From Brachyspira pilosicoli (GTDB taxonomy: Bacteria > Spirochaetota > Brachyspiria > Brachyspirales > Brachyspiraceae), in the NCBI RefSeq assembly GCF_036997485.1, contig NZ_JAWLPU010000003.1:124001-188000 (forward strand): 64,000 nt of DNA. Direction: 5' to 3'. Every line of letters starts with the position of its first letter. The stretch's first letter is position 1. The position numbers and the translations under genes are program-made. Shown here piece by piece: positions 8,403 through 20,996 of the stretch. The notes beneath the pieces are model-generated. The model was given only the letters and a program-made list of their open reading frames with translations. It did not search any database and was not told where the DNA came from.

Positions 8403-9446
8403 ATGGAAAAAATTAATATAATAAATTTCGCTGTTCTTACTGAAAACGAAAAAAATAAATTACAATCTATAGGAAATGTTAAGAATTTCGGCGCAGCTAT
8501 AGGACAAGAAGCAGATCCTACTGAAGATGATATGATAAATATACTTTCAAAAGAAGAGTTTGAAGTATTAATAGTAAATTCTGCTCCTGTAACCAAAAAA
8601 GTTATAGATATACTAAAAAATACTAAGCTTATAATATGCGCTAGAGGAAATCCTGTAAATGTTGATGTTGAATATTGCAAAAATAAATCAATAATAGTAA
8701 CACATACTCCAGGAAGAAATGCTAATGCTGTAGCTGAGTACACAATATCTATGATTATATCTTCTATGAGAAATATACCTGATTCTATTTTGGCTTTGAA
8801 AAATAAAGAATGTACGTTAGATTTGCCATTAGATAAAGTTGATAGAAATAAAAAAGATGTAGCTTGGATGCATCCTAGTTTGAAATATGAGCCTTATTAT
8901 AAATTTAGCGGTAATGAAATAATAGGTAAGAAATTAGGGCTTATAGGTTTTGGATTTATTGGACAAAAAGTAGCTGAAAAGGCTATGGCATTAGGTATGG
9001 AAATATGTGTTTATGACCCATATATACCAAAAGAAATAGTTCATAAATTTAATGCTTCATATATGGAATTTGAAGATATATTAAAAGAATCTGATGTTAT
9101 AAGCTTGCATGCTAAATCTAGTAACGAGTATTTAATAAAAAAAGAACATTTTAATTTAATGAAAGATTCTTCTATTATTATTAATACAGCTAGGAGTACA
9201 TTAATTGACAATGATGCCTTAATAGAAGCTTTAAAAAATAAAAAGATTAGATGTGCTGTTTTAGATGTATTTCCATACGAGCCATTATCTTCTTATGATC
9301 CTATGTTAGATAATATAGAAGGATTGATATTAACTCCTCATATAGCTGGTGCTTCAAAAGATGTTGTTATACATCAAAGTAAAATGGTTATAGAATCTTT
9401 AGAAGCTTATATATGTAAGAAAGAAATTCCTTATTTAGCAAAATAA
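8403..9446 (+). CDS. D-isomer-specific 2-hydroxyacid dehydrogenase family protein
   Basis: The 347-residue protein has the two-domain pattern of NAD-dependent D-2-hydroxyacid dehydrogenases. The NAD-binding Rossmann motif is GLIGFGFIGQKVAEKA (about 180-195), followed by the substrate-side TARSTLIDNDAL, then VLDVFPYEP and LTPHIAG, which holds the catalytic His. Relatives include phosphoglycerate and glycerate dehydrogenases. Its place between the isomerase and the FGGY kinase implies a role in the same pathway, perhaps handling a hydroxyacid made from the released aldehyde or another sugar acid. This step is not part of the known MtnK-MtnA-aldolase route. AAAGGAT serves as RBS. Confidence 0.8.
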   Translation: MEKINIINFAVLTENEKNKLQSIGNVKNFGAAIGQEADPTEDDMINILSKEEFEVLIVNSAPVTKKVIDILKNTKLIICARGNPVNVDVEYCKNKSIIVTHTPGRNANAVAEYTISMIISSMRNIPDSILALKNKECTLDLPLDKVDRNKKDVAWMHPSLKYEPYYKFSGNEIIGKKLGLIGFGFIGQKVAEKAMALGMEICVYDPYIPKEIVHKFNASYMEFEDILKESDVISLHAKSSNEYLIKKEHFNLMKDSSIIINTARSTLIDNDALIEALKNKKIRCAVLDVFPYEPLSSYDPMLDNIEGLILTPHIAGASKDVVIHQSKMVIESLEAYICKKEIPYLAK

Positions 9447-9471
9447 AATAGAGGTATGGTAAGGAGGTATC

Positions 9472-10998
9472 ATGGACAGTTTTGTATTAGGGTTGGATAT
9501 AGGCACAACTGAAATAAAAGCTGTTTTATTTTCTTTAGATGGTAAAGAAATAGAAATATCTAGGAAAAAAAATGAAATAATAGAATTGCCCAATGGAATA
9601 TATGAGCAAGACATGAATGTTTTATGGGATAATTTATGTATTGTAATAAGGAATCTAATAGGAAAAATAGGGGATAAAAATATAATAGGTATTGGGCTTT
9701 CTGCGCAGGGAGAAGGCTGCTGGTTAGTTGATGATAAAGGGAAACCTGTTAGAACTGCTATTTTATGGAATGATGCAAGAGCATCATCAATTATTAATGA
9801 TGTATCAAAAGAGCAGGTAAAAAAATATAAATCTATAACTGGCTCTTTGCCATGTCCAGGTGCGATGAGTTTCATAATAAAATGGTTATCTATTAATGAT
9901 AAAAAATCTCTGGATAATGCTAAGTATGCTTTATTTTGTAAAGATTGGATAAGGTATAAATTAACAGGAGAATTTTTTATTGAGGAAACAGATACTTCGA
10001 CTTCGCTTTTAGATTTAGGAAAAAAAGAAGTATCTTCAGAGATATTCGATATGCTGAATATTTCTGAATATTATCGTTTGATGCCTAATTTAATAAATTC
10101 TAACTCTGTTGCTGGAAGTATAACTAAAGAAGCAGCATACATGACAGGATTAAAAGAAGGTATTAGTGTATCAGCAGGGTATATAGATGTTATATCATCA
10201 TGTATAGGAGCTGGGGCTTTATATGAAAACGATGTTTGCTCTATTTTAGGTACATCTTGTGTTAATGAATTTTTATCTAATTCTTTTAATTTATTAGAAG
10301 ATTCTGTATCTTATTTATGTTATGGAGATGGCGAAAAGTATGTCTCTATAGTAGGAAATATGGCTGGTACTCCTAATATAGATTGGATAACTAATACATT
10401 ATTTTCAGATGTTGAAAACATATTGAAAAATAAAAGAGAGTTCTATGATTTTATAGATGAAAAAATAAAAGATATACCAATGGGCTCAAATGGAGTAATA
10501 TATCATCCGTATATAAAAAATTCTGGTGAACGCGCTCCTTTTTTGGATACTAATGCGAGGGCTAGTTTTTTTGGAATAAACGAAAATACAACTAGGTGGG
10601 ATTTATTAAAAGCTATATACGAAGGTATAGCATTCTCCATTAAAGATTGTTTTCAAAGCTATATACCTAAAAAGATTTTTTTAATGGGAGGAGGCGCTAA
10701 TAGTACAATTTTAGCTAAAATTATATCTGATTGTATGGGGGTTCCTATAGTTATTTCTAAATCAAAAGAGTTAGGGGCAAAGGGAGCGGCCGTATCTGCT
10801 TGTATGGCTACTGGTGTATTTTCAACTTTAAAAGAAGCATTAGATGCTTTTAAAAATGAAACCATAGAGATATATCCGAATGAGAAGAATACGCTATTTT
10901 ATAATGAATATTTTCAGATATACAAAAATCTAAGGAATTTATATAAAATAGAATGGGAAAGAAAAATAAACATATTAAATAAATTTAAATTATTATAA
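9472..10998 (+). CDS. FGGY-family carbohydrate kinase
   Basis: The start is well fixed by AAGGAGG just upstream. The 508-residue protein opens with the ATP-binding LGLDIGTTEIKAVLF, continues with GIGLSAQGEGCWLVDD and ILWNDARA, and carries the probable catalytic Asp in SAGYIDVISS. The second nucleotide-binding region is MGGGANSTILAKIISD. Substrates of this family are ketoses, polyols and the AI-2 precursor; the motifs do not fix which. A second sugar kinase in an operon that already has MtnK suggests either that the operon takes a second, unphosphorylated substrate or that a downstream intermediate must be phosphorylated. It is directly followed by the class II aldolase (13 bp). Confidence 0.8.
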   Translation: MDSFVLGLDIGTTEIKAVLFSLDGKEIEISRKKNEIIELPNGIYEQDMNVLWDNLCIVIRNLIGKIGDKNIIGIGLSAQGEGCWLVDDKGKPVRTAILWNDARASSIINDVSKEQVKKYKSITGSLPCPGAMSFIIKWLSINDKKSLDNAKYALFCKDWIRYKLTGEFFIEETDTSTSLLDLGKKEVSSEIFDMLNISEYYRLMPNLINSNSVAGSITKEAAYMTGLKEGISVSAGYIDVISSCIGAGALYENDVCSILGTSCVNEFLSNSFNLLEDSVSYLCYGDGEKYVSIVGNMAGTPNIDWITNTLFSDVENILKNKREFYDFIDEKIKDIPMGSNGVIYHPYIKNSGERAPFLDTNARASFFGINENTTRWDLLKAIYEGIAFSIKDCFQSYIPKKIFLMGGGANSTILAKIISDCMGVPIVISKSKELGAKGAAVSACMATGVFSTLKEALDAFKNETIEIYPNEKNTLFYNEYFQIYKNLRNLYKIEWERKINILNKFKLL

Positions 10999-11011
10999 GG
11001 AGTTTTACATT

Positions 11012-11650
11012 ATGAAATATGAAGAATGTTTAGAACAAAGAGAAGAATTAGCTTTTTATATGAGAAGATTATATAAGCAAAAATTAACTACTTGTTCAGG
11101 AGGAAATTTGAGTGCTAGATTAGATGAAAAACATATTATTATTACTCCATCTAGTTTAGATAAAGGTTTTATAAAAGCGGAACAAATAGGTCTTATGACT
11201 ATTGACGGAGAAAATCTTACACCTCATTTAAAGCCTAGTATAGAAACAGGAATGCATTTAAGCGCTTATAGAACTCGTGATGATATAAAAGCTATAATAC
11301 ATGCCCACCCTGTTACTGCAACTAGTTTTGCTGCTATGGATAAGAAAATAAATATTAATTTAACTGGAGAGGCTTTTGTTGTTTTAAAAAAAATAGCTTA
11401 TGCTCCATATATATTAATGGGAACTGACGGCTTATCTGAAGCTGTATGTGAAGGATTAAAAATTTCAAATGTTGTTATTATGAAAAACCATGGTATTACT
11501 ACTGTAGGAAATACTTTATTATCAGCTTTTGATAAAATGGAAGTATTAGAAGCAGCAGCTCAAATGACATTAAATACTCAAATTATGGGAAATATTAGTC
11601 AGTTGACAGATAAAAATTTGGATGAGCTTATTGAATGGTCTAATAAGTAA
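11012..11650 (+). CDS. class II aldolase (fuculose-phosphate aldolase type)
   Basis: Zn-dependent class II aldolases of this type split ketose-1-phosphates into DHAP and an aldehyde. The 212 residues contain the phosphate-binding SGGNLSAR (29-36), the catalytic Glu in PSIETGMH (75-82), the zinc ligands in IHAHPVTA (His97, His99) and a third His at 160 (MKNHGITT). In the MtnK-MtnA context the expected substrate is methylthioribulose-1-phosphate or 5-deoxyribulose-1-phosphate, giving DHAP plus (methylthio)acetaldehyde or acetaldehyde. This is the DHAP-shunt reaction known from E. coli (Ald2) and from the B. thuringiensis deoxyribose cluster. The RBS AAGGAG is strong. The family assignment is firm; the substrate is inferred. 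Confidence 0.88.
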   Translation: MKYEECLEQREELAFYMRRLYKQKLTTCSGGNLSARLDEKHIIITPSSLDKGFIKAEQIGLMTIDGENLTPHLKPSIETGMHLSAYRTRDDIKAIIHAHPVTATSFAAMDKKININLTGEAFVVLKKIAYAPYILMGTDGLSEAVCEGLKISNVVIMKNHGITTVGNTLLSAFDKMEVLEAAAQMTLNTQIMGNISQLTDKNLDELIEWSNK

Positions 11651-11674
11651 TAGAAATTAATAACGGAGTTTTCT

Positions 11675-12847
11675 ATGAACAATTTTAACTATTACAGCCC
11701 ATGTAATATTTATTTTGGTAAAGATACTGAAAATAATATTGGCGCTTTATGTAAAAAACTTTCTGTAAAAAAAGTACTTCTGCATTATGGAGGAGGGTCT
11801 ATAAAGAAAAACGGTCTTTACTATAAAGTAACAGAATGCTTAAAAAAAGAGAACATAGAGTTTTTAGAATTGCCTGGTGTTGAGCCTAATCCTAAATTAT
11901 CTTTAGCATTAAAAGGTATAGAGTTGTGTAAAAAAGAAAATATAGATTTTGTATTAGCTGTTGGCGGAGGAAGTGTTATAGATTCAGCAAAATGTATAGC
12001 TAGCGGATACTATTATGATAATATATGGGAATATTATTTAGATGGAAGCAAAACTATAGAAAAGGCTTTACCAATAGGAGTCGTATTAACTATACCTGCA
12101 GCTGGAAGCGAAACTTCTCCAAATTCTGTTATTACTGAGGAAAAAAGTAAGTTAAAAAGATCCATAGAATCTTCGGCTATTATACCTAAATTTTCTATTA
12201 TAAATCCTGAAAATACTTTTTCTCTGCCTAAAAATCAAATAGCAAATGGAGTATCTGATATAATAGCTCATTTATTTGAAAGATACTTCTCGCAAACAGA
12301 AAATGTAGATTTAACGGATAGACTCTTAGAATCTGCAATTATTACTATGCTTAAGTATGGAAAATTAACTTTTGATAATCCTGAAAATTATGATATACGT
12401 GCTGAAACTATGTGGTCTGGTACATTGGCTCACAATGGAATACTATCCCAAGGTAGAACAGAAGATTGGGCAAGTCATAGTATTGAACATGAATTATCTG
12501 CTGAATATAATATAGCTCATGGTGCTGGATTGTCTATAGTGTTTCCTGCTTGGATGAAGTATGTGTATAAAGAAAATATTGGTAGATTTTTACAATTTTC
12601 AAGAAGGGTATTTAATGTAGATTATGGAGTTGGAAAAGAAGAGCTGACAATAACTGAAACAATAAAAAAACTGGAAAAGTTCTATAAGTCTTTAAACTTA
12701 CCAATAAAGCTTTCAGAAGTTAATATAAATGATGACAAGATAGATGAAATGACAGAAAGGTTATTTTATAATAGGTCTGAATATATAGGTAATTTCAAAA
12801 AGCTTAATAAAGAGGATGTAAAAAATATATATCGTTTAGCATTATAA
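11675..12847 (+). CDS. iron-containing alcohol dehydrogenase (YqhD/BDH type)
   Basis: This NAD(P)H-dependent alcohol dehydrogenase of 390 residues has the GGGS nucleotide motif (97-100, LAVGGGSVIDSAK) and candidate metal ligands Asp195, His199 (GVSDIIAHLFE), His268 (WASHSIEHE) and His282 (NIAHGAGLS). YqhD and butanol dehydrogenase relatives reduce short-chain aldehydes. As the last gene of the operon it probably reduces the aldehyde released by the aldolase to an alcohol, which removes a toxic product and regenerates NAD(P)+. That fits fermentative growth. Its 3' end faces the regulator gene across a shared terminator. Confidence 0.85.
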   Translation: MNNFNYYSPCNIYFGKDTENNIGALCKKLSVKKVLLHYGGGSIKKNGLYYKVTECLKKENIEFLELPGVEPNPKLSLALKGIELCKKENIDFVLAVGGGSVIDSAKCIASGYYYDNIWEYYLDGSKTIEKALPIGVVLTIPAAGSETSPNSVITEEKSKLKRSIESSAIIPKFSIINPENTFSLPKNQIANGVSDIIAHLFERYFSQTENVDLTDRLLESAIITMLKYGKLTFDNPENYDIRAETMWSGTLAHNGILSQGRTEDWASHSIEHELSAEYNIAHGAGLSIVFPAWMKYVYKENIGRFLQFSRRVFNVDYGVGKEELTITETIKKLEKFYKSLNLPIKLSEVNINDDKIDEMTERLFYNRSEYIGNFKKLNKEDVKNIYRLAL

Positions 12848-12870
12848 ATTTTATATACCTAAAATCAAGG

Positions 12871-12917
12871 AGTATTTTATCTGTCATAAATATCTTAGTT
12901 AAGATGGATAAAATACT
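12871..12917. terminator. bidirectional terminator between operon end and DeoR gene
   Basis: AGTATTTTATC (12871-12881) pairs with GATAAAATACT (12907-12917), and a smaller stem ATCTTA/TAAGAT lies inside. The right arm overlaps the 3' end of the regulator gene. The layout serves both converging transcripts. Confidence 0.55.
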
Positions 12918-13678
12918 TCTGTTTTTATTGAGTCAAAATACTCTAACCATTCTTTACTTGGCGCTTTGTCTGTGTAAATTCTATCTATATCACTAAAATC
13001 AGCTATTTTTATAAGAGAGTCTTGATCAAATTTAGATGAGTCGCATAAAATCCAGCTCTTGTTAGCATTTTTTATCATTTTTCTTTTAATTGGAACTGTT
13101 TCTATATTTCCATTAAAAATACCTTGTTTTAGCTTTATTCCTGTACATCCTACTAAAGCAATATCTGCCCTGTATGAATCTAACATATCTATTGTTTCTG
13201 AACCTATAACACAATTCTCATTTGACCACCACATTCCTCCGCATAATATAACGGAAATTTTTGAATTTGTTCCAAGTATATGTGCTATATTTGTAAAATG
13301 TGTAATTACAGTGCAGCGTTTTGATAACTGCGACATAACATGAGCAACTTGCATAGCGCTAGTAGATGAGTCCATAAATATTGAAAAATCTATATCATTA
13401 GGTAACTCTTTTACTATTTCTTTTGCAATAATCCTTTTTTCATTCAAGTTCTTTTGGTATCTTATTCCTATATTATTATTTGTAGCATTAATATTTGAAG
13501 AAGGTAGTGAAACTCCACCTCGTACTCTTAATACAAGACCATCTTGCTCCATTGTTTCTAAATCAGACCTTATAGTATTTAATGCAACATTTAATTGTTT
13601 AGAAAGCTCTGTTATTGTAATTTTTTTATCTTTTTTTAGTAAGTCTAAAATAATTTCTTGTCGTTCAAACGAAAGCAT
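12899..13678 (-). CDS. DeoR-family transcriptional regulator
   Basis: The 259-residue protein has the N-terminal DeoR helix-turn-helix (RQEIILDLLKKDKKITITEL, then SDLETMEQDGLVLRVRGG) and a C-terminal sugar-phosphate sensor domain of the DeoRC type (MDSSTSAMQVA, ITHFTNIAHIL, VLCGG-like ILCGGMWW, ALVGCTGI). DeoR regulators usually repress carbohydrate operons and release DNA when they bind a phosphorylated sugar. It converges on the salvage operon, so the likely ligand is a phosphorylated intermediate of that route, and the phased repeats before 4715 are a candidate operator. It has its own promoter (13714-13742). Confidence 0.85.
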   Translation of the reverse strand: MLSFERQEIILDLLKKDKKITITELSKQLNVALNTIRSDLETMEQDGLVLRVRGGVSLPSSNINATNNNIGIRYQKNLNEKRIIAKEIVKELPNDIDFSIFMDSSTSAMQVAHVMSQLSKRCTVITHFTNIAHILGTNSKISVILCGGMWWSNENCVIGSETIDMLDSYRADIALVGCTGIKLKQGIFNGNIETVPIKRKMIKNANKSWILCDSSKFDQDSLIKIADFSDIDRIYTDKAPSKEWLEYFDSIKTEVFYPS

Positions 13679-13713: not shown

Positions 13714-13742
13714 ATTCTATATTATAAGATATCACTTGTCAA
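13714..13742 (-). promoter_or_regulatory. sigma-70-type promoter of the DeoR gene
   Basis: On the minus strand TTGACA (13742-13737) and TAGAAT (13719-13714) are separated by exactly 17 bp, about 36 bp before the start codon. The -35 box is a perfect consensus. Confidence 0.65.
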
Positions 13743-13785: not shown

Positions 13786-13869
13786 TTATTCTTTTTTCCC
13801 TTTAACTTTATCAATTAAACCAATTATTCCAGCTATAATCAGACCGATTAAGCAAGTTATTCCTCACAT
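13786..13869 (-). CDS. candidate 27-residue selenoprotein (in-frame TGA at codon 2)
   Basis: On the minus strand AAGGAG (13880-13875) lies 5 nt before ATG (13869-13867). The next codon is TGA (13866-13864). Reading TGA as U gives M-U-GITCLIGLIIAGIIGLID-KVKGKKE, then TAA at 13788-13786. The product would be a short hydrophobic helix with a Lys-rich tail and a U-x3-C pair. There is no other start codon after the TGA. A hairpin with a GGTCT loop begins 10 nt past the TGA and fits the bacterial SECIS model. A promoter lies upstream. The codons forming the hairpin (ATC, GGT, CTG) are unusual for this AT-rich genome, which hints at selection on RNA. The alternative is a small gene killed by a Cys/Trp/Gly-to-stop mutation. 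No selenocysteine machinery is visible in the window. Confidence 0.45.
13832..13853 (-). promoter_or_regulatory. bacterial SECIS-like hairpin
   Basis: The minus-strand arms GCTTAATC and GATTATAGC form an eight-pair stem with one bulged T and a five-base GGTCT loop. Counting from the base after TGA, the loop occupies +19 to +23. GGTCTG sits at +19 to +24, which from memory is the same place as in the E. coli fdhF SECIS (codons GGU CUG at +7/+8). The published bacterial model asks for a short stem, a small loop with G in its first two positions and a 16-37 nt distance; all are met. Confidence 0.45.
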
Positions 13870-13894
13870 ATATTCTCCTTATCTTTTTTGTTTT

Positions 13895-13923
13895 ATTATA
13901 CTATATATGGGTATATAAGTAAA
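13895..13923 (-). promoter_or_regulatory. promoter of the candidate selenoprotein gene
   Basis: Minus-strand TTTACT (13923-13918) and a perfect TATAAT (13900-13895) are 17 bp apart, about 25 bp before the ATG. This supports a real, separately transcribed small gene. Confidence 0.5.
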
Positions 13924-14024: not shown

Positions 14025-15911
14025 ATGAGTGATTTTTGGGTAATAAATACAAGTAATTTAAAAAAAGGTGAAAATAAAGATGAAAAATATGTTGATGACC
14101 TTGTGAATATTATGATAAAAGAGCATATATGCTTATTTGGATATTTTGAAGATAGTGGTCAAACATTTAGAAAAATAAAAATAGGTGATGTTATAATAGT
14201 AAGCCAAAGAATCAGTGAAAAAAGCTACCAAAGAAGTCCTGATAGTAATTATTTTGTTGGTATTGTAGATTCAGATGCTTATGATAGTTATGAAATAGCT
14301 TTAACTCAAGAAGGTATTATAAAAGAACTAAATAAAGATAGAAGTAATTTGGTTGATACAGATACAGTTTATAAATTTCAATACAGAAAATTAAAAAACT
14401 TTAAGTTATTAAAAGGTAAAAAATTAACATTTAAAGAAGATAGTGAAGATTATCCAACTGTACAACCTATTTATAAATTAAAAAAAAGTAATGATAAAGA
14501 TAAAATATTGATAGAAGAAATAAAAAAAATAATGGATGTAAATATGATAAAAGAATGTAAAGAACTTTTAGAACAAAATTACAACCTCATACTCACAGGT
14601 GCACCGGGCACAGGAAAAACTTATTTAGCAAAACAGATAGCAGCTAAGATTATTTTTGATGATGATAAAAAAGAGTATACAGAAGAATTAGAAGAAGATG
14701 AGAATTTTAAAAATCAATATGAGTTTGTGCAGTTTCACCCATCTTATGATTATACAGATTTTGTTGAGGGGTTAAGACCTATTAAAGACAGTAGTGGAAA
14801 TATTGGCTTTGAAAGAAAAGACGGAGTTTTTAAAGAGTTTTGTAAAAAGGCACTTAAGAATTTAATTGATAGTAAAAAAGATATTTCACAATTGAATGAA
14901 GATGCTATTATAAAAAATAATTTACTCGAATTTATAGACTATATTTCTATTGTAATAGATGAAAAAGGATGTTTTGAAATTGAAGGTATTAATAGGAAAG
15001 CAGCCCCATTAAAAGAAATAGAATTAAATGATGAAACATTGTATTTTGTTCCAGATATAAAAGCTGATAAACCAATTAAACTAACATTAGATAAATTAGT
15101 AGAATTTTATAAAAAATTTTCTGGAGAACTTAAAATAAATAAAAAATGGGATTATCAAAACTTTATAGCTAAATTTGGACTTAAAGGTCAACATACGTAT
15201 GTTCATGGATTTTTAAAAGCATTCTATGAAAAATATAATTCTGAAATAGAAAAAGAATTAAATAATAATAATACTGTAGAAAAAGTTGAAAAGAAAAATT
15301 TTGTATTCATCATAGATGAGATTAACAGGGGAGAGATTTCAAAAATTTTCGGTGAATTATTTTTTGCTATTGACCCCGGATATAGAGGTGTTAAAGGAAA
15401 AGTGCTTACTCAATACTCTAATTTGATAGATGAGGAATTAGAAAAATATTTTTATATACCAGAGAATGTTTATATAATGGGCACTATGAATGATATTGAC
15501 AGAAGCGTTGAGAGTATGGACTTTGCTATGCGTAGGAGGTTCGCTTGGAAAGAGGTCAATGCTAAAGATACACAAGAGAGTATATTAAAAGATTTAGATG
15601 ATAGTATAAAACAAGATGCAATTGATAGAATGAATGCTTTAAATAATGCAATTAGTGAAATAGAAGGCTTTAATTCTTCTTATCATATAGGGGCTTCTTA
15701 TTTCTTGAAGCTAAAAAATTATTATAATGGTAATAATAAAGAAGATGCATTTAAAAGTTTGTGGGATAACCATTTGAAAGGGCTTTTATTTGAGTATTTG
15801 AGAGGTATGCCTGATATAAATGATAAACTTAAAAAGTTAGAATATTCTTATAATGTGTTACCTGCTAACAATACAAAACAAGATACTAATGATAATAATA
15901 TAGATAATTGA
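14025..15911 (+). CDS. mcrB: McrB-type AAA+ GTPase of a type IV restriction system
   Basis: McrB proteins recognise modified DNA through a variable N-terminal domain and translocate it using a GTP-hydrolysing AAA+ motor. The 628 residues show Walker A GAPGTGKT (192-199), the McrB-specific FVQFHPSYDYTDFVEG, Walker B FVFIIDEINRGEISK near 426-440 and the GTPase signature MNDIDR (488-493), followed by MDFAMRRRFAW. Residues 1 to about 150 carry no E. coli-type DUF3578; WVINTSN and KIGDVIIVSQR are reminiscent of EVE/PUA-like modified-base readers, but this is tentative. The RBS is weak. The partner mcrC follows after a 96-bp gap that contains a dispersed repeat. Confidence 0.85.
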   Translation: MSDFWVINTSNLKKGENKDEKYVDDLVNIMIKEHICLFGYFEDSGQTFRKIKIGDVIIVSQRISEKSYQRSPDSNYFVGIVDSDAYDSYEIALTQEGIIKELNKDRSNLVDTDTVYKFQYRKLKNFKLLKGKKLTFKEDSEDYPTVQPIYKLKKSNDKDKILIEEIKKIMDVNMIKECKELLEQNYNLILTGAPGTGKTYLAKQIAAKIIFDDDKKEYTEELEEDENFKNQYEFVQFHPSYDYTDFVEGLRPIKDSSGNIGFERKDGVFKEFCKKALKNLIDSKKDISQLNEDAIIKNNLLEFIDYISIVIDEKGCFEIEGINRKAAPLKEIELNDETLYFVPDIKADKPIKLTLDKLVEFYKKFSGELKINKKWDYQNFIAKFGLKGQHTYVHGFLKAFYEKYNSEIEKELNNNNTVEKVEKKNFVFIIDEINRGEISKIFGELFFAIDPGYRGVKGKVLTQYSNLIDEELEKYFYIPENVYIMGTMNDIDRSVESMDFAMRRRFAWKEVNAKDTQESILKDLDDSIKQDAIDRMNALNNAISEIEGFNSSYHIGASYFLKLKNYYNGNNKEDAFKSLWDNHLKGLLFEYLRGMPDINDKLKKLEYSYNVLPANNTKQDTNDNNIDN

Positions 15912-15930
15912 TAAATTTTAAAATAAGTAA

Positions 15931-16000
15931 GAGCCAAAAATGCAGCCTTTTTGGTTCTTTGTGGCAACAAAAGAACTGGGGTGCGGGGCAAAGCCCTGCA
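15931..16000 (+). repeat. dispersed hairpin repeat, copy 1, between mcrB and mcrC
   Basis: This copy holds a GTTCTTTGT/ACAAAAGAAC stem (one bulged A) and a GC-rich stem GCGGGGC/GCCCTGC with a three-base loop that ends 7 bp before the mcrC start codon. The last 32 bp match copy 2, inverted, with two differences by eye. It lies inside what should be one operon. Confidence 0.75.
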
Positions 16001-16007
16001 ATAATAA

Positions 16008-17381
16008 ATGAATATAAACAATAAAATTATTAAATTAAAAGATAATACTAAACATGAAATACATAACAATATTTCAGAAGAAAATATAATCTCAATAAAA
16101 GAAATTTCAGGCAAAACTATATCAGCTATAAAAGATAATATTATAATATTTCCTAACTCCATAAAAGAAAGTAAAGACTTAGAAGAAGAGAGCAGAATAT
16201 TTGATATAATAAATGATAGTATACACACCAATAATATAATGGGCTTTATTAGCTACAATAATACACAAATAAAAATTTCTTCAAGATTTGCTTTCAATGA
16301 TAATGAAGATTATTTTCTGCATTACATGCTTATGAAAGTGCTTTCTCTTAATGTTGTTAATTTGGAGCATAGTAAAGATTATGATGATTCATTTGATTTT
16401 TTAATTTATATGTTTATTAGTTTTTTTAAGAGAGCATTAAGACAGGGGCTTTTTAAACAATACAAACTAATAAAGCATAATGATTCTAATGTTAAAGGCA
16501 CTATTGATATTAACAGATACATTAAAAACAATATTCCTTTTAATGGTAAAATTTCTTATAATACCAGAGAATATAGCTATGATAATAATATCACTCAATT
16601 AATAAGACACACCATAGAATATATAAACACAAAAAATAGATATCTTTTAAGCTATGATAATGAAATAAAAGATTATACTCATCAAATATTTTATTCTACA
16701 CATAGCTATGAGAGAAATAAAAGAGAAAGCATTATAAATAAAAACTTAAAACAATTATCGCACCCCTACTATTATGAATATGAGCCATTGAGGAAAATAT
16801 GCATTCAAATATTAAGGCACGAAAAGTTAAAGTATGGTAGAGATGATAATACAGTGTATGGATTATTATTTGACGGAGCATGGCTATTTGAGGAATATTT
16901 AAACACTATTTTGAAGCAAATTAATTTTGAACATTCTGAAAATAAAACAGGGAAAGACCCTTTTCATTTGCTTATTAATGACAATAGAGGCAGATGGAAA
17001 ATTTATCCTGACTTTCATAAATTATCAGATGACAATAAAAATAATATTGTACTTGATGCTAAATATAAAAGCCTTGATAAAAAAATCAATGAAGATAAAG
17101 ATTATATAAATAGAGAAGATAGATTGCAGATAGTTTCTTATGCCTATACACTTAATGCTAAAAAGGCTGGTTTTATTTATCCTGTTGAAATTGATAATTA
17201 TAAAGAAGATAGCTATATAGGAAATCTAAATAATGAATATAATAATGCTGATTGTAAGATATGTAAATATGCTTTAAAAATTCCATCAAAAAAATTAAAC
17301 GGAGAGAATTTTAATAATATAAAAGATTTCATTGAAACAATGGGGAGTTTAGAAAAAGAATTAGTCTCTAAGCTTAATTAA
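16008..17381 (+). CDS. mcrC: McrC nuclease subunit of a type IV restriction system
   Basis: McrC supplies the endonuclease to the McrB motor. The C-terminal region has a PD-(D/E)XK core: YPDFHKL near 327 and LDAKYKS with Asp350 and Lys352. The N-terminal half resembles the McrC family (IFPNSIKESK, GFISYNNTQIKISSRFAF). Length 457 is within the family range. The ATG at 16008 is preceded in frame by TAA at once, so no earlier start is possible, and no Shine-Dalgarno sequence is seen: the repeat hairpin occupies that place. Repeat copies in opposite orientation flank the gene. Expression may therefore be low or structurally controlled. Confidence 0.85.
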   Translation: MNINNKIIKLKDNTKHEIHNNISEENIISIKEISGKTISAIKDNIIIFPNSIKESKDLEEESRIFDIINDSIHTNNIMGFISYNNTQIKISSRFAFNDNEDYFLHYMLMKVLSLNVVNLEHSKDYDDSFDFLIYMFISFFKRALRQGLFKQYKLIKHNDSNVKGTIDINRYIKNNIPFNGKISYNTREYSYDNNITQLIRHTIEYINTKNRYLLSYDNEIKDYTHQIFYSTHSYERNKRESIINKNLKQLSHPYYYEYEPLRKICIQILRHEKLKYGRDDNTVYGLLFDGAWLFEEYLNTILKQINFEHSENKTGKDPFHLLINDNRGRWKIYPDFHKLSDDNKNNIVLDAKYKSLDKKINEDKDYINREDRLQIVSYAYTLNAKKAGFIYPVEIDNYKEDSYIGNLNNEYNNADCKICKYALKIPSKKLNGENFNNIKDFIETMGSLEKELVSKLN

Positions 17382-18960: not shown

Positions 18961-19923
18961 ATGGATAAAGTAAATATTTCCCTTATAGGTGTAGGCAGAA
19001 TGGGGCAATTTCACCTTAATGTTATAAATCAAATAGAAAGTATTAATTTAACGGGTATATATGATGCTGATGAAAATCATCTTAATGAAGTATCTAATAA
19101 ATATAATATTAATAAATTTAATAGTTTAGATGAAGCTATAGACAATTCAGAGGCAGTAATAATAGCAAGCCCAACAAAGTTTCATTTTGAAATAGCAAAG
19201 AAAGCTTTAGAAAAGTCCAGACATGTATTGGTTGAAAAGCCAATGACAGAAACATATTTACAAGCTAAAGAATTACAAGAGATAGTAAATAAAAAAAATC
19301 TCATACTTCAAGTAGGACACGTTGAGAGATTTAATGGAGCAGTACAAGAGCTTCATCATATAATAGAAAAACCTTATCTAATAGAGGCAAGAAGATTAGC
19401 GCCATTTACACCTCGTATTACAGATGTTGGTGTTGTATTTGATATAATGATTCATGATTTAGATATAGTAACTTCACTTGTAAAAAAGCCTGTTATAAGA
19501 TTTTCAGCAAGCGGTAAGAGAGTAAGAACAAACAACGAAGATATTGCAAGTGCTTTATTAGAGTTTGAAGATGAAACCATAGCAACAGTAAGCGCAAGCA
19601 GAATTACACAAGAGAAAATTAGAACTTTAGCCATAAGTACAGAAGATGCTTATTTTATATTGGATTATGCTACACAAGATATTACAATACATAGACAAGC
19701 AAGCAGCGAGAGCAAAATAAAAACTTCTATAGGAATCAATTATACTCAAGAATCTATTATAGAGAGAGTGTTTATTCATAGAGATAATCCATTAAAATTG
19801 GAAGATGAGCATTTTGCAAACTGTATATTAGGAAAAGATAAAAGATTTGTTTCTGTAGAAAATGATGTAAATACTATTAAATTAACAGAGGATATACTCA
19901 AAAAAATTAAAGAAACTTGGTAA
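18961..19923 (+). CDS. Gfo/Idh/MocA-family oxidoreductase
   Basis: The 320 residues begin with a Rossmann motif GVGRMGQFH (10-18). The family's EKP motif follows (HVLVEKPMTE, around 88-97), then the substrate-domain VGHVERFNGA and DVGVVFDIMIHDLDIV, the latter with the His and Asp of the active-site region. Such enzymes oxidise or reduce sugars and sugar nucleotides with NAD(P). The GHxERFN and MIHDLDI pattern is common in UDP-sugar 3-dehydrogenases used in envelope synthesis, for example GnnA, but I cannot separate these from other members by eye. It is followed by two sugar-binding protein genes with their own promoter. Confidence 0.8.
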   Translation: MDKVNISLIGVGRMGQFHLNVINQIESINLTGIYDADENHLNEVSNKYNINKFNSLDEAIDNSEAVIIASPTKFHFEIAKKALEKSRHVLVEKPMTETYLQAKELQEIVNKKNLILQVGHVERFNGAVQELHHIIEKPYLIEARRLAPFTPRITDVGVVFDIMIHDLDIVTSLVKKPVIRFSASGKRVRTNNEDIASALLEFEDETIATVSASRITQEKIRTLAISTEDAYFILDYATQDITIHRQASSESKIKTSIGINYTQESIIERVFIHRDNPLKLEDEHFANCILGKDKRFVSVENDVNTIKLTEDILKKIKETW

Positions 19924-19932
19924 TAAATTATC

Positions 19933-19961
19933 TTGACAACAAAAACATATTTAACTATAAT
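19933..19961 (+). promoter_or_regulatory. perfect-consensus promoter before the first MglB-like gene
   Basis: TTGACA (19933-19938) and TATAAT (19956-19961) are exactly 17 bp apart. Transcription would start near 19968, leaving a leader of only about 9 nt with the GAGG (19968-19971) at its very 5' end. Confidence 0.7.
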
Positions 19962-19976
19962 TAAATTGAGGTATTT

Positions 19977-20996
19977 ATGGTCAGGCGAGTATTAAATTTT
20001 GTTATTTTATTATTTATATCATCTTCTTTAATATTTACTCAAAATAAAAAAAGCACTATAGGTATAGCTTTATATAGGTTTGATGATGATTATACACAAT
20101 ATTTAAAAAGTTATATAGAGAAAAATATTGGAAACAAAGCTTCTTTAACTATAGTAAATTCTCATAATAGCCAAGTAACGCAGAATGACCAAGTAGAAAT
20201 ATTTTTAAATAAAAAAGTTAATCTTATAGCAATTAATTTAGTAAATGAAAGTTATGCTCAAACTATAATAAATAAAGTAAGCGTTAGAAATATACCTATT
20301 ATTTTTTTTAACAAGGAACCGGATTTAGAAGCTCTTAATAGTTATAATAATGTTTGGTATATTGGAGGAAGCAGTGAGAATGCAGGAACGGTTCAGGGAA
20401 GAGTTATAGCAGATAGTTGGAAGTCTCATGCTAATTGGGATAAGAATGAAGATGGAAAGATTCAATGCGTAATAATAAAAGGAAGAACTAATGGCTTTGA
20501 GAGTGAGAATAGAACTCAGTATATGAAAGATTATTTAAAAAGAAATAATATTAAACTTGATATATTAGCTGAGGTTTATTCTCTTGATAATAGAAAAACT
20601 GCTTCTATGGAAATGGATAAACTAATGGCTAAATATTCCAAGAAAATAGAATATATCATCGCTAATGATGATAATATGGCATTGGGGGCATTAGATTCTA
20701 TAAAAAAATTGGGTTTTAATAATAACAGCAGAATGCTTAATTATATACCTATAGTAGGAATTGGCGGTATACCAGAATGTTTACAAGAGATAAAAAATTA
20801 TTCTGTATTTGCTACAGTAATGCAAAACCCTTCTACTCAGGCAGAAGTTTTATCTAAGGTTTCATTAAATATAATAAATAATAAATCACCATTAGACGGC
20901 ACAACTTTGAGTTTTGATAATAATAAATATATTTTTGTGCCTTATATACCTGTAACTATGTTTAATTTGGATAGGGCTATTGAAATTTATAAATAA
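19977..20996 (+). CDS. MglB-like periplasmic sugar-binding protein
   Basis: The 339-residue protein starts with a signal peptide (VLNFVILLFISSSLIFTQ) without a convincing lipobox, so it is probably secreted or anchored by its uncleaved helix. The mature part is a type I periplasmic binding fold of the galactose/glucose type: TIGIALYRFDDDYTQY, PIIFFNKEP, a Ca-loop-like DKNEDGKIQCVIIKGR and NDDNMALGALDSIKK. It is a diverged paralogue of the next gene; the binding-site residues differ, so its ligand may differ too. It has a strong promoter of its own. No permease or ATPase gene is adjacent. Confidence 0.8.
   Translation: MVRRVLNFVILLFISSSLIFTQNKKSTIGIALYRFDDDYTQYLKSYIEKNIGNKASLTIVNSHNSQVTQNDQVEIFLNKKVNLIAINLVNESYAQTIINKVSVRNIPIIFFNKEPDLEALNSYNNVWYIGGSSENAGTVQGRVIADSWKSHANWDKNEDGKIQCVIIKGRTNGFESENRTQYMKDYLKRNNIKLDILAEVYSLDNRKTASMEMDKLMAKYSKKIEYIIANDDNMALGALDSIKKLGFNNNSRMLNYIPIVGIGGIPECLQEIKNYSVFATVMQNPSTQAEVLSKVSLNIINNKSPLDGTTLSFDNNKYIFVPYIPVTMFNLDRAIEIYK

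Follow-up and report, generated by a model that had tools for sequence, protein, structure and literature searches.

A candidate 27-codon selenoprotein gene with an in-frame TGA at codon 2 in Brachyspira

A short minus-strand frame and its hairpin

The window analyzed here is a 64,000-nt stretch of a genome of the gut spirochete Brachyspira pilosicoli, in which a sequence-only reading had proposed a tiny selenoprotein gene. As that reading had described, the minus strand carries a strong ribosome-binding site, an ATG, an immediate in-frame TGA, 25 further sense codons, and a TAA; its sequence details all proved accurate. The features of the locus are listed below.

13895..13923, minus strand: promoter-like pair TTTACT-17-TATAAT, from a consensus scan; at chance level for an AT-rich region
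13875..13880, minus strand: Shine-Dalgarno sequence AAGGAG, read from the sequence
13786..13869, minus strand: candidate selenoprotein ORF MUGITCLIGLIIAGIIGLIDKVKGKKE, stop TAA; read from the sequence, with 17 intact orthologs showing coding-type substitutions
13869..13867, minus strand: start codon ATG, read from the sequence
13864..13866, minus strand: candidate selenocysteine (Sec) codon TGA, codon 2; TGA in 17/17 intact orthologs and in the diverged G019 homolog
13832..13853, minus strand: SECIS-like hairpin GC-UUAAUC-GGUCU-GAUUAUAGC, from the fold and a core nearly invariant at synonymous sites
13841..13845, minus strand: SECIS-like apical loop GGUCU, +19 to +23 after the TGA; position and letters as in E. 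coli fdhF
13788..13786, minus strand: stop codon TAA, after 25 sense codons

The frame begins ATG TGA GGA ATA ACT TGC TTA ATC GGT CTG ATT ATA GCT and continues GGA ATA ATT GGT TTA ATT GAT AAA GTT AAA GGG AAA AAA GAA TAA. The loop codons ATC and CTG had been called unusual for this genome, and they do make up just 3.2% of the Ile codons and 1.3% of the Leu codons, respectively, in the long ORFs of the window. A -10/-35 pair had also been claimed; it is present 5' of the ORF but at the chance level given above. TATAAT or a near match recurs 5' of nearly all orthologs, as does a GGAG/AGGAG-like motif.

The hexamer GGTCTG lies at 13845..13840, which is +19 to +24 after the TGA. Its proposed correspondence to the fdhF SECIS was confirmed by the identical offset in E. 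coli, where the GGTCTG segment was found in 5368/5426 genomes, although fdhF encodes another protein in another host and its stem is more GC-rich and stabler (-14.2 versus -6.2 kcal/mol). The bacterial SECIS model (PMC13188914) calls for a loop of 3 to 9 nt, a stem of 4 to 16 bp, a G at loop position 1 or 2, a loop 16 to 37 nt from the TGA, and a free energy of -7.5 kcal/mol or lower. The geometry of the window hairpin agrees with this model in stem length, loop size, loop-start G, and distance, as had been proposed, with a GGUCU loop, 5 to 7 bp plus lower pairs, and a spacing of 18 nt. Its free energy of -6.2 kcal/mol is weaker than the -7.5 limit; five other ortholog variants range from -7.6 to -9.9 kcal/mol (47-nt segment), and the diverged G019 hairpin is at -7.2 kcal/mol. 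Fold z-scores for the window copy were not significant, and the hairpin is thus not unusually stable, so we dropped structural stability as evidence. We likewise dropped the motif alone, given that the 2.7-Mb genome has four occurrences of TGA-N18-GGTCTG, with no excess over a reversed control. When the peptide was recoded at random with the codon usage of the window, 70% of draws gave a stem of at least 5 pairs with a G at loop position 1 or 2, and 2.5% gave such a stem bearing a GGTCT loop. Judged by these comparisons, the hairpin alone is unconvincing, and the case for the candidate is carried by conservation, which is far beyond chance across species.

The next gene on the minus strand encodes a DeoR-type regulator (Pfam) with its own promoter-like site at 13742..13714. 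This regulator is convergent with an apparent sugar/polyol operon (8403..13678 for the two together), whose ORFs read as a dehydrogenase, an FGGY-like kinase, an aldolase-like protein, and an iron alcohol dehydrogenase-like protein; the Pfam search covered the regulator. On the plus strand, the adjoining 14025..17381 reads from its sequence as a pair of adjacent ORFs, McrB-type GTPase-like and McrC-type partner-like (restriction of modified DNA). Across genomes, neighbors named from sequence (a HAD hydrolase, an amidohydrolase, prmC, and aroC) were considered as functional clues and were uninformative.

Conservation of the frame and the hairpin in Brachyspira

We searched 26 Brachyspira genomes at the DNA level and with a profile, and 17 of them contain an intact 27-codon ortholog, in single copy. 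These represent 14 distinct sequences with a mean pairwise nucleotide identity of 84%. Among public genomes, the gene was found in Brachyspira only, including B. alvinipulli and B. hampsonii 30446. The ATG, the TGA, the GGA codon of Gly3, and Cys6 are kept in all 17 intact orthologs, with Cys6 encoded by TGC in 7 and by TGT in 7 of the distinct sequences; codon 2, the position on which the proposal hinged, is TGA in every one of them and in the diverged G019 copy. Downstream of the TGA, the variable columns are distributed 11/5/16 over codon positions 1/2/3 and there are no frame-0 stops. The non-synonymous share is 0.57, compared to 0.83 +/- 0.06 in column permutations, none of which (0/5000) was as low, and the low share persists when the hairpin is left out. 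This period-3 pattern, the lack of stops, and the permutation result together indicate that the tail is translated.

The hairpin is constrained in addition. Its core, AATCGG(T/G)(C/T)TGATTATA, is kept in 17/17 intact orthologs, and the sole loop changes among them, GGT to GGG and CTG to TTG, are both silent in the protein. The third position varies in 1 of the 6 hairpin codons (codons 7 to 12) compared to 15 of the 19 other codons. Given that these third positions are nearly frozen despite the rare codons ATC and CTG, the RNA sequence is under a constraint of its own.

An eighteenth genome, G019, carries a 49-residue relative that was found as a weak profile match (MUVGCIFGIAAGLVALVDKIKENKQRKLEEENSEVTEDSIIEDIDENIN). 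This copy begins ATG TGA GTA GGG TGT and has AAGGAG upstream. Its stem, UGCUGCU/AGUGGCA, has 7 pairs and nothing in common with the stem of the other orthologs, and its loop is again GGUCU, at +28 (27 nt after the TGA), an arrangement that arises in about 1% of synonymous recodings. The hairpin is therefore retained in this diverged homolog as a new stem bearing the same loop, and an unrelated stem with an identical loop would be the outcome expected of SelB recognition. The copy sits between genes named from sequence as prmC and aroC. Many of the other species also have prmC nearby, and aroC is a neighbor both in the window and in two further species, which supports the orthology of the G019 copy. 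The G019 copy also has an acidic extension of some 22 residues at its C terminus, absent from all others, and is collinear with prmC, about a dozen bases downstream of the prmC stop (L107, G019:C12).

In the remaining genomes the gene is damaged or missing. The copies in G004, G012, and G015 are decayed and no longer have the start codon, TGA, or loop, and in G018 a 12-nt deletion takes out Cys6 and puts the loop too near the TGA. No copy was found in G001, G003, G013, or G021, two of which are assemblies less than 90% complete. A SelA match is present in 26/26 Brachyspira genomes and a tRNA-Sec over the cut-off in 25/26. Copies have thus been lost or have decayed while SelA and tRNA-Sec persist, so a species can dispense with the gene and still keep the Sec trait.

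Selenocysteine machinery and the search for relatives

The sequence-only reading had named selA, selB, selC, and selD as the genes to look for elsewhere in the host genome, and all four are present. selC, selA, and selB lie together on one contig (C4) and selD on another (C1), with SelA scoring 353 bits, SelD 356 bits, and tRNA-Sec 59.9 bits, over the cut-off; the SelB-like ORF adjoins selA. A second tRNA-Sec-like match of 51.7 bits, also over the Rfam cut-off, adjoins the selA match in G020 (L058, G020:C134:11321-11403); that assembly is listed at 7% contamination, and the match may derive from another organism.

Other selenoprotein genes occur in the same host. Its grdB has a TGA at codon 346, followed by GGA; the GGT of its loop lies at +19, which is the spacing seen in the 27-codon ORF. 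In grdA, at the same locus, codon 55 of the open frame is an in-frame TGA. Glycine reductase selenoprotein B (GrdB) thus resembles our candidate in its GGU loop at +19 after TGA-GGA but is a 432-residue enzyme with Sec at residue 346. Ordinary ORF lists would end grdB, which lies around 19517-20542 of G000:C1 (L103), at its Sec TGA. The host also has two Thioredoxin_3 genes with an in-frame TGA, which match the Brachyspira family described in PMC5330540. The Thioredoxin_3-like Sec.1 and Sec.2 proteins of that study (Santesmasses et al. 2017) share with the 27-codon gene the organisms, the machinery, and the logic by which they were found, as well as a short N-terminal Sec segment and a history of being missed or truncated in annotation; they differ in having about 95 to 120 residues, a thioredoxin domain, and Cys homologs and in not being membrane peptides.

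No form with Cys at the Sec position was found in the genus, order, phylum, or public genomes, so the site is without the usual Sec/Cys pairing as confirmation. A profile search of 393 genomes of the phylum yielded no credible relative outside Brachyspira. Weak matches in G090 and G180 were set aside as sequences that look like chance, and those in G231 and G286 are 12-residue matches within 404-residue frames. Around prmC in G001 and in five non-Brachyspira genomes, no convincing short Sec or Cys version was found, and viral contigs, phages, and plasmids gave no match to the gene. No Pfam, NCBIfam, or PHROGs family scored over the cut-off, the matches there being weak LapA, DUF, or holin-like ones. 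None of the 119 selenoprotein families in Table 1 of a 2026 review (PMC13188914) has the MUGxxC motif. B. hampsonii 30446, which carries the gene, was searched for overlooked selenoproteins in PMC5330540 (2017), the consulted passages of which make no mention of it. As far as the open-access literature shows, the gene appears to be previously undescribed.

Proposed decoding, alternative readings, and the peptide

The coding of the tail, the selection on the hairpin, and the presence of the machinery are well supported, and the comparative evidence strongly supports the reading of the ORF as a putative tiny selenoprotein gene. From its sequence, we consider it very probable that the minus-strand 27-codon ORF is a stand-alone selenoprotein gene. 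We propose that the ribosome would initiate at the ATG, placing the UGA in the A site; the downstream hairpin would then recruit SelB with Sec-tRNA, selenocysteine would enter as residue 2, and translation would run on through 25 codons to the TAA. The product would be a 27-residue peptide in which MUG-I-x-C precedes a hydrophobic stretch of about 16 residues and then a basic tail. In principle, an AUG-UGA layout can be decoded, given that a model AUG-UGA-SECIS mRNA gave fMet-Sec on 40% of ribosomes in vitro, and on 6% with RF2 (PMC4513850). Sec insertion at codon 2 would make this a natural case of UGA as second codon, a layout so far represented by that artificial mRNA, on which RF2 outcompetes Sec insertion, and it raises the question of how RF2 is avoided in the natural gene.

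We considered several other readings of the locus. The ATG-TGA could be a true start-stop, with the tail translated from a downstream nonstandard start, either the loop Leu codon (CTG/TTG) or an Ile codon. Start-stop elements do exist, and no Cys homolog marks codon 2 as sense; however, codons 3 to 7, which lie 5' of such a start, are constrained like coding sequence (Gly3 invariant, Cys6 as TGC or TGT), the ribosome-binding site is positioned for the ATG, G019 has a different hairpin with GGT CTA there, so a Leu start codon is not common to all, and the fdhF spacing would be a coincidence. We regard a start-stop as very unlikely. The chance seems slighter still that the ORF is a selenium-sensing leader in which TGA decoding controls a gene downstream and the peptide has no importance of its own. 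Such a leader would fit with a Sec codon that directly follows the start within a short 5' region, but the downstream neighbors vary among species and are mostly convergent, a terminator-like C-rich hairpin and T run follow the stop in many orthologs, DeoR in the window has the promoter-like site of its own, and the tail is under purifying selection. Least probable of all is that the conserved sequence works as regulatory RNA or DNA and yields no peptide, as the nearly invariant 18-nt core might suggest; substitutions outside the core have a period of three, 0/5000 permutations were as synonymous, and an Rfam scan of the window found no family.

A Sec peptide might also be produced and yet act as a small hydrophobic toxin or membrane-active peptide instead of in redox chemistry. 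Its size, single hydrophobic helix, and basic tail resemble those of type I toxins, but no antisense RNA or antitoxin was seen, Sec and Cys are invariant in intact orthologs, and there is one copy per genome, which leaves a toxin improbable, if less so than the readings without a Sec product. Returning to the selenoprotein reading, residues 4 to 19 are hydrophobic (mean hydropathy of 2.6 over residues 2 to 19) and are followed by the basic tail DKVKGKKE. The peptide has no thioredoxin-like domain, being hydrophobic and without a Pfam domain, and is too small for a globular fold. We infer that it crosses the membrane once as a helix, with Sec2 and Cys6 one turn apart on the same face near its N terminus; the positive-inside rule would place the tail in the cytoplasm and the Sec end outside. 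Methionine aminopeptidase takes off Met before small residues such as Cys, which makes a free N-terminal Sec plausible. A role as a membrane-anchored thiol/selenol redox element, for which the one clue is the invariant Sec/Cys pair, is in our estimate an even bet, and the peptide would probably pack against itself or against a membrane partner. Taken as a whole, a picture for which we would claim somewhat less than an even chance is that of a genus-wide membrane selenopeptide whose Sec, free at the N terminus after Met removal and one turn from a conserved Cys, would form a membrane-embedded redox or metal-binding switch, encoded by a natural AUG-UGA-SECIS mRNA and the first of a class of selenoprotein microproteins not seen before.

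On almost every sequence criterion the candidate would be a selenoprotein, unusual in its size, its Sec position, and its lack of a domain or a Cys relative. Most known selenoproteins are enzymes that hold Sec within a folded active site, and selenoprotein searches depend on recognizable domains or Cys homologs. A 27-codon gene with neither would escape both gene callers and selenoprotein pipelines, and other selenoprotein microproteins may be hidden. The product would be among the smallest selenoproteins known. The earlier suggestion that it is smaller than any other calls for qualification: VhuU, an archaeal hydrogenase subunit, has about 25 residues when mature, after cleavage of a longer precursor. 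VhuU is likewise a very small Sec polypeptide; it differs as a cleaved nickel-binding hydrogenase fragment that is not a membrane helix and whose archaeal SECIS lies in the 3' UTR. TsoA (LULAXC motif), KCU-star, and other small NCBI selenoprotein families (PMC13188914) resemble the 27-codon gene in having no assigned enzyme function.
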